Shown: in pieces, positions 7,281 to 57,900 of the stretch
Layout of the letters: the number at the start of each line of letters is the position of its first letter
Numbering within the stretch: position 1 is the stretch's first letter
DNA from: Planotetraspora mira
GTDB taxonomy: Bacteria; Actinomycetota; Actinomycetes; Streptosporangiales; Streptosporangiaceae
DNA length: 64,000 bases
Direction of reading: 5' to 3'
Assembly: GCF_016863275.1 (NCBI RefSeq)
Contig: NZ_BOOO01000033.1
Coordinates: 62,001-126,000, forward strand
Made by a program: the position numbers and the translations under genes
Notes under the pieces: model-generated
What the model was told of the DNA's origin: nothing
Seen by the model: the letters and a program-made list of their open reading frames with translations, nothing else
Databases searched by the model: none

Positions 7281-7500
7281 CATGATCATCCACCACTCCA
7301 GGCGTGATCACCCACCACCCCAGGCGTGATCATGCACAGGTTCGGAAAGACCCGCCCTGACCTGCGCACCCACCCAGCGTGATCATGCACACTTTCGGCC
7401 GCATCATCCCTGACCTGCGTGTACGGCATGCGTGATCATGCACACCTTCGGGGAAACACACTCCGACCTGGGCGGAAACCCGGCGTGATCATGCGCGGGA
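7281..7500 (+). repeat. 53-bp repeat array A (forward cores only)
   Basis: Four copies of the core CGTGATCATGCACA start at 7325, 7378, 7431 and 7484, spaced exactly 53 bp; the last reads ATGCGCG. Each of the first three is followed by TTCGG and, about 30 nt on, by GACCTG. Two shorter 22-bp units starting at 7281 and 7303 (CATGATCATCCACC, CGTGATCACCCACC) precede them in register with the first full unit. The array fills the gap between the exporter start at 7186 and the 3' end of the ABC permease gene at 7505. Confidence 0.9.
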
Positions 7501-16499: not shown

Positions 16500-16953
16500 G
16501 AGGCTTCCGGGAATGATGTAAGCTAGCGAGCAGTTGATGCTTTTCTGATGGTTTCGTTACTTTCCTGGGCTGCTTGCCCGATGTGACGGAGCCCGGTGTC
16601 CGTGAAGTCCTTTCGTGAGGACCGATACATCTGCGGGGACACCGGCATCACTGATGATCGCGAGTCGGCCGTGTTCGGGTAGACTCGCGGAAAGATCAGC
16701 GTTGGATCACCAGACGCGACGACCGCGTGACGCTGCTGAACGGCACGAGACCCTACGTGCCAAGGACTGATGACCGGAAGAGCCGGACGTCAAGTCCGCC
16801 CGGGAGAAACTCCCGGAGTTCCGCCGAGTGGGAGTCGCTCCCTCACGTCCTGAACGAGGTACGGCGCCGCCGTACTTGCCCTGGCTCGTCCTTTCGCAGA
16901 AGTGACGCGCCCCCGTGTTCCGACACGTCACCTTCGATGAAAGGCACGATTTC
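16500..16953 (+). promoter_or_regulatory. Long structured 5' leader of the DEAD-box helicase gene
   Basis: No supported coding frame is present. Several hairpins can form: CCGGTGTCC (16593-16601) with GGACACCGG (16637-16645), enclosing GTCCT (16607-16611) with AGGAC (16618-16622); CCGGGAG-AAA-CTCCCGG at 16800-16816; and GTACGGC-GCC-GCCGTAC at 16859-16875. A TAGACT -10-like hexamer is at 16680-16685. The promoter position is uncertain, so the transcribed leader may be shorter. Confidence 0.5.
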
Positions 16954-18645
16954 GTGACCATGCTCGACCCCGGCCTGCCCGAGATCACCGACGCCGCGGA
17001 GGCGGAGGTCACCCGAGCCGACTTCGCTCAGCTCGGGTTGCCCAAGCCGCTCGTGGCGGGGCTGGCCCGTCAGGGCATCACCGCGCCGTTCCCCATCCAG
17101 AGCGCGGCCATCCCCGACATCCTCGATGGGCGCGACGTCCTCGGCCGTGGCCAGACCGGCTCCGGCAAGACGTTGGCCTTCGGGCTTCCCACCATGACCA
17201 GGATCGCCGGTGAGCGGGCGCTCCCGAGGCGCCCCCGCGCCATCGTCCTGGTCCCCACCCGCGAACTGGCCCTCCAGGTGGCCGACGCGCTCGAACCGCT
17301 GGCCCGCGGCCTGTCGCTGCGCGTCAAGACGGTCGTGGGCGGCATGTCCATGGGCAGGCAGATCGAGGCGCTGCGCCGCGGCGTCGAGATCGTCGTCGCC
17401 ACGCCCGGACGGCTGACCGACCTCATGGAGCAGGGAGAGTGCTCCCTGGAGGACATCGAGATCAGCGTCCTCGACGAGGCCGACCACATGTGCGACCTCG
17501 GCTTCTATCCCGTGGTGAGCTCGATCCTCGCCAAGACGCCCGCCAACGGCCAGCGGCTGCTGTTCTCCGCCACGCTGGACGGCGACGTCGACAAGCTCGT
17601 GCGGGCGTTCCTCACCGACCCGATCACGCACTCCCTCGACCCGGCGACCTCGTCGGTCGAGACCATGGAGCACCACCTCGTCCAGGTCCACCGTGACGAC
17701 AAGGTCGACGTGACGGCGGAGATCGCCAACCGCGACGGCCGGACGATCCTGTTCGTCCGCACCCAGCACGGCGTCGACCGGGTCGTGAAGCAACTGGCGC
17801 GCGTCGGCGTCCGGGCCGGCGGCCTGCACGGCGGCAAGCGGCAGAACCAGCGCACCCGGATCCTGGGCGAGTTCCGCGAGGGCAACATCAAGGTGCTCGT
17901 CTGCACCGACGTCGCCGCCCGCGGCATCCACGTGGACGACGTCAGCCTCGTCCTCCACGTCGACCCGCCGGCCGACCACAAGAGCTACCTGCACCGCGGC
18001 GGCCGTACGGCCCGTGCGGGCGAGCGGGGCAGCGTCCTGACCCTGGTCATGCCGAACGAGCGCCGTTCGACCGAGCAGATGGCCCGCCGGGCGGGCATCA
18101 ACGCTTCCCGGCACCGCGTCACGCCCGGCGACCCCGTGCTCGCCGACATCGCCGGCGCCCGCCGGCCCAGTGGCGAGTCGATCCCCGTGTGGGAGCCGGA
18201 CGTGCGCAAGCCCCTGCGGGCCAAGGCCGACCACGCGGGCGGCGAGCGTCGGCGTGGCCGATTCGGCGAGCGCCGAGACCGGGACGGCCGTCCCGGCGAG
18301 GCCAGGCCGGCCCGTCGGCGCGACGAGTCGGCCGGCAGCGTGGGCGAGACCCGCGGCCGGTTCCGCGACAGGCCGTCGGAGGGGCGCGGAGAGCGGCGCG
18401 ACGACCGGCCGGCCGAGCGTCGTGACGATTCCCGTGGCGGGAATGGCGGGTTCCGTGGAGACCGTCAGGGCGACAACCGTGGGCTCCAGGGAGACAGGCG
18501 CCGTGGCCCGGCCACCGGTGACTCCCGCGGTGACTCCCGCGGTGACTCCCGCGCCCGTTACCAGGGCGAGCGGCCCAGGTCGTCGGAGGGCCCCGCCCCC
18601 CGTTCCGACCGTCGTCCCCCTCGCCGTGACCACGCTTCGGCGTGA
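16954..18645 (+). CDS. DEAD-box ATP-dependent RNA helicase
   Basis: 563 aa. RecA domain 1 has a Q-motif (FPIQSAAIPDIL), GQTGSGKT, PTRELALQ, TPGRL, LDEADHMCDLG and FSATLDG; domain 2 has FVRTQHGVDR, CTDVAARGIHVDDV and HRGGRTARAG. The last ~150 residues are a basic Arg/Asp/Gly-rich tail, as in RNA chaperone helicases of cold-shock type. GTG at 16954 is preferred (GAAAGG about 11 nt upstream); ATG 16960 and GTG 16915 are alternatives. The stop codon TGA is part of the first core of repeat array B. Confidence 0.93.
   Translation: MTMLDPGLPEITDAAEAEVTRADFAQLGLPKPLVAGLARQGITAPFPIQSAAIPDILDGRDVLGRGQTGSGKTLAFGLPTMTRIAGERALPRRPRAIVLVPTRELALQVADALEPLARGLSLRVKTVVGGMSMGRQIEALRRGVEIVVATPGRLTDLMEQGECSLEDIEISVLDEADHMCDLGFYPVVSSILAKTPANGQRLLFSATLDGDVDKLVRAFLTDPITHSLDPATSSVETMEHHLVQVHRDDKVDVTAEIANRDGRTILFVRTQHGVDRVVKQLARVGVRAGGLHGGKRQNQRTRILGEFREGNIKVLVCTDVAARGIHVDDVSLVLHVDPPADHKSYLHRGGRTARAGERGSVLTLVMPNERRSTEQMARRAGINASRHRVTPGDPVLADIAGARRPSGESIPVWEPDVRKPLRAKADHAGGERRRGRFGERRDRDGRPGEARPARRRDESAGSVGETRGRFRDRPSEGRGERRDDRPAERRDDSRGGNGGFRGDRQGDNRGLQGDRRRGPATGDSRGDSRGDSRARYQGERPRSSEGPAPRSDRRPPRRDHASA
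18517..18552 (+). repeat. Three perfect 12-bp repeats inside the helicase tail
   Basis: GGTGACTCCCGC is repeated three times in frame, encoding a Gly-Asp-Ser-Arg tetrapeptide each time within the disordered basic tail. The copy number is likely to vary between strains. Confidence 0.85.
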
Positions 18646-18941
18646 TCATGCACAAGTTCGGAAATCGGGTCGCTGAGCTGGCCCGATTCCGATCGTGATC
18701 ATGCACAGGTTCGGAAGATGAGGGTCTGAGCTGGCCGTTCTTGATTCGTGATCATGCACGGATTCTTGTGGCTGGGTCCTGATCTGCGGTTTTGCCTAAC
18801 GTGATCATGCACGCAATAGCGCGTGCATGATCACGTTTTGCGTTTCCGCTGGTCGTACGGCGGATAGCCGAATGTGCGCATGATCACGCTTGGAGTTCGC
18901 CCTGCTGGGACCACGTTTTCACGAATGTGTGCATGATCACG
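18641..18941. repeat. 53-bp repeat array B (facing arms, central hairpin)
   Basis: Forward cores CGTGATCATGCAC start at 18641, 18694, 18747 and 18800; inverted cores end at 18835, 18888 and 18941. All intervals within an arm are 53 bp. The arms meet in a perfect inverted repeat: 15 bases at 18800-18814, loop AATAGC, 15 bases at 18821-18835. The first core supplies the helicase stop codon. The array takes up most of the 479-bp gap before hisE; the remaining ~180 bp up to 19124 holds only the likely hisE promoter region. Confidence 0.92.
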
Positions 18942-19124
18942 GGTGAGGTTGGGGGCCGCAAGGGGATCGCCCGCGAGCTCTTCGGCTGAGTCCCGGAACC
19001 GCCCACGCCGTACGGCACGGGCCCGCGGAGGCGGCGGGCGCGACGCGCCCCAGGCGTGACTGACCTCGATGCGTCCATGCGGCGGATACCCTGGACAGGC
19101 ACGCCCGACGATCCGAGAGAGATC

Positions 19125-19388
19125 ATGAAGACGTTCGAAGAGCTGTACGCCGAGCTGGCCGAGAAGGCGCGAACCCGGCCCCCGGGGTCGGGGACCGTCG
19201 CCGCCCTGGACGCCGGTGTCCATGCCATCGGGAAGAAGATCGTGGAGGAGGCCGCCGAGAGCTGGATGGCGGCCGAGCACGAGTCGGCCGACCGGGCTGC
19301 CGAGGAGATCTCGCAGCTGCTCTATCACGTCCAGGTCCTCATGCTGGCGCGTGGCATCGGGCTCGACCAGGTCTACAAGCATCTGTAG
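19125..19388 (+). CDS. hisE: Phosphoribosyl-ATP pyrophosphatase
   Basis: 87 aa, the normal length for stand-alone HisE, which hydrolyses phosphoribosyl-ATP in histidine synthesis step two. The MazG-like metal site is visible in [19 protein letters not shown] and [17 protein letters not shown] at 19125 follows GAGAGA; longer frames back to 19056 add an unconserved extension. hisG follows 67 nt downstream. Confidence 0.94.
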
Positions 19389-54908: not shown

Positions 54909-55405
54909 CGTGATCATGCACAGGTTCGGAGAAGGTGCCGCTGACCTGCGGGTCCACAATTCGTGATCATGTAGGGATTCGTGGATTCCCCCCCGACCAG
55001 CCCTTTCCTCCGTCGTGATCATGCACACATTCGGGGAAAGCGGTGCTGACCTGCGGACTCGGTATTCGTGATCATGCGCAGGTTCGGAAAAGGTAGCGAT
55101 GGCCTGCGGATACGGCATCCGTGATCATGCAGGGCCGTACGGGTCCGTCATGTGAGTCGACCGGGAGGCATGGTTGCGGGCCTTCAAGCGGCGCCGGCCG
55201 CTGGAAGAGCGTTGATGGGGTATGCCGCGGGTCGCGCATGATCAGGCCATGGGAACAGGCTGGTCAAGGGTCGGATGCACGAAGGTGTGCATGATCACGG
55301 ATGTAGTATCCGCAGCTCAGCGCCGCTTTCCCCGAATCTGCGCATGATCACGTGCGGAGTTGGGGCTGGTCATCGGCCATAACCCCGAATGTGTGCATGA
55401 TCACG
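54909..55405. repeat. 53-bp repeat array C (facing arms)
   Basis: Forward cores start at 54909, 54962, 55014, 55067 and 55120 (intervals 53, 52, 53, 53). Inverted cores end at about 55246 (degenerate), 55299, 55352 and 55405, all 53 bp apart. TTCGG and TGACCTGC/TGACCAGC blocks recur inside units. The centre (about 55134-55232) is unrelated sequence, not a hairpin. The array fills most of the 762-bp gap between the POT gene and the secreted-protein gene, which are divergent. The last ~80 bp carry the promoter region of the latter. Confidence 0.9.
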
Positions 55406-57640: not shown

Positions 57641-57900
57641 GGTGATCATGCACCGGCCCGGCCAACGCTGGGATCGTGCATGATCATGAACGGTGTTCCG
57701 GCAGGTCAGGCTTGCCGTACGCGAATGGCCGCATGATCACGCCAACGGAAGGTGCTGGTCACGCAGGTTGATCGCGAACTTGTGCATGATCACGGCGGGG
57801 AAAGGGGCTGGTAGGCAGGCATGATCACGAATCTGTGCATGATCACGCATGGGAAGTGGGCAGGTGGGAGCGGGTGATCACGAACCTGTGCATGATCACG
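57641..57900. repeat. 53-bp repeat array D (mostly inverted arm)
   Basis: One forward core at 57641 faces inverted cores ending at 57688, 57741, 57794, 57847 and 57900, all 53 bp apart. Two shorter secondary copies end at 57829 and 57882, each 18 bp before a full core. The forward core and the first inverted core can pair as a 12-bp stem with a 22-nt loop. The last core supplies the stop codon of the ABC gene at 57896. The array separates the convergent RamR-like and ABC genes. Confidence 0.9.

Follow-up and report, generated by a model that had tools for sequence, protein, structure and literature searches.

Phased intergenic repeat arrays with inward-facing arms in Planotetraspora: candidate docking elements for a DNA-binding protein

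Introduction

MIRU are dispersed tandem intergenic units of 40-100 bp, similar over the whole unit and present in direct orientation only, and are not known to have facing arms; in CRISPR arrays, repeats of about 23-50 bp alternate with spacers that are unrelated to one another. The ends of Mu, Tn7 and IS21 carry several inward-facing transposase sites, and the known signals of the Chi type each consist of one short word and form no phased arrays. REP/BIME/REPIN sequences are short dispersed intergenic repeats with RAYT-linked hairpin units, which form inverted pairs and occupy fixed inherited places. Repeats of this class and RAYT are the subject of PMC3116915 and PMC3733652.

Here we analyse repeats in a 64-kb window, that is, the whole stretch of 64,000 nucleotides from Planotetraspora mira, together with the genomes of its relatives. 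The repeat system that they form is genuine, abundant and sharply delimited, and it obeys a clear rule of polarity. It is dispersed, intergenic, paired in inverted orientation and fixed in inherited places, as the REP/BIME/REPIN sequences are, and differs from them in its 13-bp core, its exact 53-bp register, its arms of one polarity with at most six units, and a unit that is no hairpin. A search of the open PubMed Central literature returned no description of this system; a 12-mer of the core occurs in two papers there, one of which has it in a table of Streptomyces ArgR sites. The reading that we prefer, and to which we give about an even chance, is that the arrays are helically phased docking elements for a putative sequence-specific DNA-binding protein, whose role would be architectural or that of a boundary.

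Results

The arrays of the window

Array B contains CGTGATCATGCAC four times in forward and three times in inverted orientation, in a register of exactly 53 bp within each arm. The plus-strand cores, all of them exact, are at 18641..18653, 18694..18706, 18747..18759 and 18800..18812; the minus-strand cores are at 18823..18835 (exact), 18876..18888 (one mismatch, CGTGATCATGCGC) and 18929..18941 (exact). At the centre of the array (18800..18835) the innermost cores stand head to head and make up an inverted repeat (18800-18814 / 18821-18835) that is perfect over 15 bp and encloses a loop of 6 nt, and for which a second count gives 17 pairs; the innermost plus core has no TTCG box behind it. The TGA of the outermost plus core doubles as the stop codon of the upstream DEAD-box helicase gene (16915..18645, plus strand), and the downstream phosphoribosyl-ATP pyrophosphohydrolase (PRA-PH) ORF (19056..19388, with an alternative start at 19125 from approximate gene calling) is on the plus strand as well. 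These positions agree with the sequence-only reading of the locus, which had described four forward and three inverted units meeting at a 15-bp hairpin between co-directional genes.

The same reading had ascribed facing arms to arrays C and D. For array C (54909..55405), with five plus cores (54909, 54962, 55014, 55067, 55120) and four minus cores (55234, 55287, 55340, 55393), this is correct. Array D (57641..57900) is also facing, but five minus cores in the 53-bp register (57676, 57729, 57782, 57835, 57888) stand opposite a single plus core at 57641 with one mismatch, hence its plus arm is vestigial; the P. silvatica orthologue of this array has five plus and five minus cores. Array A (7281..7496, plus strand) is one-armed, and begins with two degenerate cores at 7281 and 7303 (22-bp spacing), followed by cores at 7325, 7378, 7431 and 7484. 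Altogether, there are 35 core matches with at most two mismatches in the window, compared to the mean of 1.78 and the maximum of 5 in 100 shuffles. No Rfam family matched the window at gathering scores. Identity with a ParB-parS system was rejected, as GTTTCACGTGAAAC, which we take to be the parS consensus, has no match in the window with up to three mismatches allowed.

Repeat unit, spacing and abundance

The P. mira genome contains 583 exact copies of CGTGATCATGCAC and none of the reversed control, which favours docking. In the repeating unit the core CGTGATCATGCA[C/G] is separated by 3 nt from a TTCG box, which is followed after about 12 nt by a C[C/T]GACC[T/A]GC box and, after about 12 nt more, by the next core, so that, counting from the core, TTCG is at +16, the GACC[T/A]GC box at about +34, and the next core at +53; the TTCG box is absent after the innermost core of an arm. 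In 1.22 Mb of this genome (the window and contigs C1, C2 and C4; the relatives were represented by parts of four Planotetraspora genomes) we observed 38 arrays with the mean of 6.7 cores and the longest arm of six, which scales to about 150 arrays per genome if the density is even. The exact 12-mer GTGATCATGCAC, with 623 copies in the whole genome, is confined to arrays in all 158 of its 158 occurrences in the 1.22 Mb, whatever base precedes it, and the 10-mer GTGATCATGC is within arrays in 236 of 241 cases and outside in five. This confinement also argues for docking.

Same-strand neighbours (A-T 1434 included) are spaced by 53 bp in 353 cases and by 52 bp in 26. Minor spacings of 20-21 and 30-31 bp, approximately two and three helical turns, recur in six cases each, in line with docking on a helical register. 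On the other hand, the spacings of 18-19 bp (17 cases) and 34-35 bp (18 cases) are not whole turns and do not fit the docking reading; in the examples inspected, the TTCG box there continues as a second core.

The centre gaps of facing arrays vary from 3 to 139 bp. Hence, the hairpin of array B arises incidentally from its narrow centre, where two innermost cores meet. Folding of whole arrays yields long stems, as complementary facing cores must, while the core itself is only partly palindromic. Over 131 units there was no run of covarying pairs of the kind expected for an RNA helix, again in favour of docking on DNA, although some isolated Watson-Crick excess within the unit (positions 26-52, 81 against 59.8 expected; positions 42-51, 68 against 51.6) counts against it.

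Polarity of the arms

If the units faced inward by rule, as the sequence-only reading had it, arms pointing away from each other should be absent, whereas random orientation in relatives would refute the rule. Among 71 arrays from five species (orthologues from different species counted separately; detection required an exact GATCAT or ATGATC) 34 were facing, 36 were one-armed (13 plus, 23 minus), none was diverging, and one was facing with a stray outer hit. A looser detection rule gave stray hits on the other strand in 7 of 84 arrays, which were not scored as diverging. At the B locus the arms face each other in all four other Planotetraspora species. Constant inward polarity is thereby borne out. 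The suggestion that arrays grow from the centre or from the ends is not supported, since orthologous spacers are equally similar when aligned from either end; loading onto the arms may occur.

Facing arms may also enclose a single gene instead of meeting. This was observed for a UbiA-family gene in P. kaengkrachanensis (L163:5037-6394), for a gene of the same size in P. silvatica (L158:17838-19504), and for a cytochrome P450 gene in P. mira (L206:3482-5254, corresponding to C4:463482-465254).

Conservation of positions within the genus

The 12-mer is present in 165-698 copies in the five Planotetraspora genomes and in 0-6 copies in the other 55 of the 60 genomes searched. At the B locus the four other species have 4+/4-, 3+/2-, 4+/2- and 6+/4- cores, some with two mismatches; the unit numbers differ and the facing layout is retained. 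The hairpin, however, is no general feature: both innermost cores are present in these relatives, and the additional 2 bp of the stem in some of them; in P. silvatica the helicase gene ends on TAA ahead of the array. No core pair 53 bp apart was found at 71 further helicase loci (A-T 1434 and 70 others, some of them ending at the helicase).

P. kaengkrachanensis has an array in the same place for 16 of the 17 arrays of the window and contig C1. More generally, when species were compared in each direction, so that one pair can count twice, an array was present in 92 of the 95 comparisons for which both flanks could be aligned, and this is in favour of docking. The 48 orthologous array pairs comprise 32 of the same arm type, seven with facing versus one-armed arrays, two with opposite single arms, and seven that include stray-hit arrays, and only nine pairs have equal unit numbers in both arms. 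At the array A locus a plus arm in P. mira corresponds to a minus arm in P. thailandica, an exchange that also agrees with docking. Units are gained and lost, while the place and the inward polarity persist.

P. phitsanulokensis stands somewhat apart. It has 231 copies of the 12-mer, fewer than the relatives sharing the C-ending core; its arms comprise only 2-4 units in 0.4 Mb (L153-L157, L207-L221; counted with no exact hexamer required), and the cores at its array A locus are partly degenerate. Possibly, this lineage is losing the array system. Its fewer and shorter arms indicate that the full complement is not essential, which weakens the docking reading.

Constraint on the core and its species-specific variants

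We considered 104 middle units selected by their neighbours alone, again with no exact hexamer required. None of them has more than two mismatches in the 13-bp core, and GTGATCATGC is invariant at eight of its ten positions. At the same time, the spacer identity is 0.42 within the same array and 0.39 between different arrays, that is, near random; thus, recent copying does not explain the constant cores, and the preservation of cores while spacers diverge speaks for docking. Between the window and P. silvatica, 13 reciprocal best unit pairs, some of them possibly wrong (non-homologous controls gave five and eight pairs at the equal threshold), show a divergence of 0.8% of sites in GTGATCATGC and of 11.5-14.2% in the free parts of the spacers.

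The core differs between species in a coherent way. P. thailandica uses a shifted core and favours CAGAAGTTCG where P. mira favours CACAGGTTCG; CGTGATCATGCAG has 730 copies in P. thailandica compared to 26-48 in the other four Planotetraspora. Among the P. thailandica units inspected, 33 of 36 have G at the variant position and 26 of 36 have AAG behind it, while the same positions in P. mira are occupied by C in 177 of 187 units, with AGG following in 68. Similarly, the box is TTCC in 28 of 32 units of A-T 1434 and TTCG in 168 of 187 units of P. mira. Such variants of the core and of the box are as expected if one putative reader shifted its specificity at many sites, and would support docking; however, the core variants could also stem from renewal of the arrays; the unit orthology with P. 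thailandica could not be established.

Distribution outside the genus

Thirteen of 341 genomes of the family contain a pair pattern in which TGATCATG recurs at a distance of 53 bp. These are the Planotetraspora genomes, all five of them, A-T 1434 (G105) with 415 pairs, four Microbispora with 1-10 pairs, and G074, G251 and G259 with a single pair each. A looser core pattern reaches at least 56 matches in 16 of 338 genomes, the next highest having 20. These motif-rich genomes are the five Planotetraspora, A-T 1434, G074, G075, G242, G243, G078, NEAU-GS5 (G130), and four of 15 Microbispora species (M. bryophytorum, G111; G115; M. rosea, G117; G120); for the genera g56, g58, g72 and g80 motif richness means counts, with facing places also listed for g56. 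In 118 sampled genomes of the class P. mira alone was motif-rich, and the next, G371, had 19 matches, mostly in a 22-bp tandem repeat. In this genome of another family of the class an array of CGTGATCATGCA with the 22-bp spacing was observed at C9:47884-48254. Loci of Nonomuraea and Microtetraspora show short tandem repeats with periods of 62, 46 and 35 bp (L065:8387-8500, L057:8280-8400, L081:13231 onward).

A-T 1434 has 20 arrays in 240 kb, with spacings mostly of 51-54 bp. At a comparable site an array is present in A-T 1434 and absent from P. thailandica, and a nearby P. thailandica array has no counterpart in A-T 1434, where 4.7 kb of other DNA stands. Array positions are not common to these two genomes at comparable sites, which is a point against docking.

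In all four motif-rich Microbispora the arms have at most three cores with the 53-bp spacing, and the outermost core is CGTGATCTTGTAGTTTGTCGCA or near to it. G120 has 25 facing pairs of the exact outer core at distances below 400 bp, and in 15 of these pairs the two starts are 216-219 bp apart. Facing outer cores also occur at distances of 1.3-5.2 kb; those approximately 2.77 kb apart were seen in M. bryophytorum (C60:434059-436835), M. rosea (C33:288377-291153) and G120 (C1:647397-650158).

These observations bear on the main rival reading for the origin of the arrays, namely descent from a fold-back or MITE-like element whose ends comprised several inward-facing transposase sites, and of which the arrays would be old copies, either domesticated or in decay. 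We consider this origin doubtful, though worth serious attention. The Microbispora elements with CGTGATCTTGTAGTTTGTCGCA, or nearly so, at both sides, the recurring 216-219 bp distance, the facing outer cores several kilobases apart, the patchy enrichment of the motif in four of 15 Microbispora species, and the A-T 1434 array at a site empty in P. thailandica all speak for it. In Planotetraspora, however, positions are almost frozen, spacers are near random and point to no recent common master, and cores are preserved in copies that stay in place; at the site empty in P. thailandica no clean target duplication was readable, the sequences being too diverged to judge. The mobile-element reading thus accounts for the patchiness and the fixed outer ends in Microbispora, but leaves unexplained why positions in Planotetraspora are frozen and why cores are retained there.

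No transposase tracking the arrays was found with the profiles searched. The Mu-transpos_C profile (PF09299) is absent from P. kaengkrachanensis and P. silvatica and has one match each in P. mira, P. thailandica and P. phitsanulokensis, and the rve profile (PF00665) has no match between the facing outer cores that stand 2.8 kb apart in M. bryophytorum and M. rosea. Array B had no match in plasmids, the Microbispora element none in plasmids or phages, and the Microbispora outer core none in viral contigs; the looser core pattern matched 18 viral contigs once each.

Gene context and the direction of transcription

As gene calls were made by purpose-written scripts, they are approximate, with starts less certain than stops. 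We placed 36 of the 38 P. mira arrays, the other two being at the ends of stretches: 22 are situated between co-directional, 11 between convergent, and three between divergent genes, compared to 695, 204 and 201, respectively, in the baseline of 1100 gene pairs (a cruder earlier gene calling gave 24, 9 and 3). The region from -5 to +30 bp of an array end contains 31 of 44 neighbouring stop codons and 4 of 28 neighbouring starts, and in seven of the 44 cases the TGA of the outermost core is itself the stop codon of the neighbouring gene (offset -5). Neighbours for which Pfam gave a match (7 of 10 proteins and 2 of 3) are ordinary genes.

Where the flanking genes are co-directional, one-armed arrays are directed with transcription in five cases and against it in five. 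As they ignore the direction of transcription, recognition most likely occurs at the DNA level, in agreement with docking.

Recognition at the DNA level could also mean that a DNA translocase or nuclease is halted or diverted at the arrays (as Chi-like signals, or as replication or SMC barriers), the moving machine reading their polarity. Facing arms show the same polarity to a machine arriving from either side, and the arrays are spread over intergenic regions with no orientation rule relative to genes, both of which suit such a barrier. Nevertheless, we hold it to be unlikely. The one-armed arrays of contig C1 include three on the plus and four on the minus strand, which opposes a replication-fork rule if C1 lies within one replichore, and phased arrays are unlike the single words of Chi type.

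A further reading takes the arrays for bidirectional transcription terminators or RNA processing signals. Behind the helicase gene, the plus strand of array B does show a stem of 17 pairs followed by a T-rich tail, the stop codons crowd near array ends far more than the starts do, and convergent gene pairs are preferred over divergent ones relative to the baseline. But the terminator-like appearance is limited to the plus strand of array B: TTTT follows the centre on only one of the 38 sides of 19 facing arrays, so that the arrays do not belong to the class of intrinsic bidirectional terminators, which have, in most members, a G+C-rich hairpin and a T-run on both strands. Besides, 36 of the 71 arrays are one-armed and have no central hairpin, their orientation is indifferent to transcription, and a hairpin would not need a constant 53-bp period. 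We therefore regard this explanation as quite improbable, and the bidirectional transcription barrier proposed in the sequence-only reading is not supported as a general function.

Maintenance of the arrays as a REP/BIME/REPIN population by a RAYT transposase is extremely improbable despite the dispersed intergenic positions, inverted pairs and vertical inheritance, since the RAYT-type Y1_Tnp profile (PF01797) has no match in P. mira, P. phitsanulokensis, P. kaengkrachanensis and P. silvatica and only four partial or broken matches in P. thailandica, and the 53-bp unit has a core that is not a hairpin palindrome.

Discussion

Taken together, the constant 53-bp spacing, the scarcity of changes in the core, the disregard of transcription direction, and the coherence of the core variants suggest that a single protein, bound along one helix face, recognises the arrays as double-stranded DNA. 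According to the docking reading, each array would be bound at the DNA level by a putative sequence-specific protein. Since a period of 53 bp corresponds to five turns of the helix, all cores within one arm would lie on the same helix face, where subunits could align head to tail, and two facing arms would offer identical polarity to the DNA on both sides. The bound array, in an intergenic gap and mostly just behind a stop codon, could then be a polar boundary, an anchor or a roadblock on the chromosome, an architectural role being the most likely.

We also put forward, tentatively and as less probable than docking in itself, a chromosome-organising system seen so far in Streptosporangiaceae only, in which the putative reader would coat about 150 phased arrays (about 1000 sites) per genome, facing arms would form a two-sided boundary, and the reader and its sites would drift together, yielding uniform core variants in each species or genus. 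As to the reader, an ArgR site listed for SCO5864 of Streptomyces coelicolor contains the 12-mer GTGATCATGCAC (PMC5839063). An ArgR-like protein could be the reader, although this is a weak lead from a single word.

Should all arrays dock one and the same protein, about 150 intergenic gaps (by scaling) of a compact genome would be given over to it, and the core variants would be a natural record of a protein and its sites changing together. The putative reader gene might then be found by comparison of the four motif-rich Microbispora genomes with the 11 others. If, on the contrary, the arrays are domesticated mobile elements, they would illustrate how such ends become frozen and are kept.

Among the known systems, MIRU resemble the arrays in being tandem intergenic units of about 53 bp in actinobacteria, which may supply the stop codon of a neighbouring gene, and the 53-bp units in 38 arrays over 1.22 Mb are within the range of dispersed tandem intergenic units of this kind. 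The arrays are not MIRU, however, as conservation is limited to the core and two short boxes, the spacers being near random, and the arms face each other instead of having direct orientation only. Nor are they CRISPR, since the core is 13 bp and the spacers share two common boxes, at variance with longer repeats and unrelated spacers.

The multi-site ends of Mu, Tn7 and IS21 likewise have several inward-facing sites per end, but no association of the arrays with a matching transposase was found (judged by PF09299, and by rve in two intervals), and the arms of most arrays enclose nothing. Fold-back elements of Drosophila also consist of inverted arms of tandem repeats; these are eukaryotic mobile elements, whereas the present arrays hardly change place within the genus and retain their cores. 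Operator-type arrays such as parS and iterons provide several sites for one protein in the helix register, as the arrays would, but here there are, by scaling, about 150 chromosomal arrays per genome, and the window has no parS-like word. Finally, convergent CTCF sites of animals bear a loose likeness to two inward-facing arms, if these indeed form a two-sided boundary.
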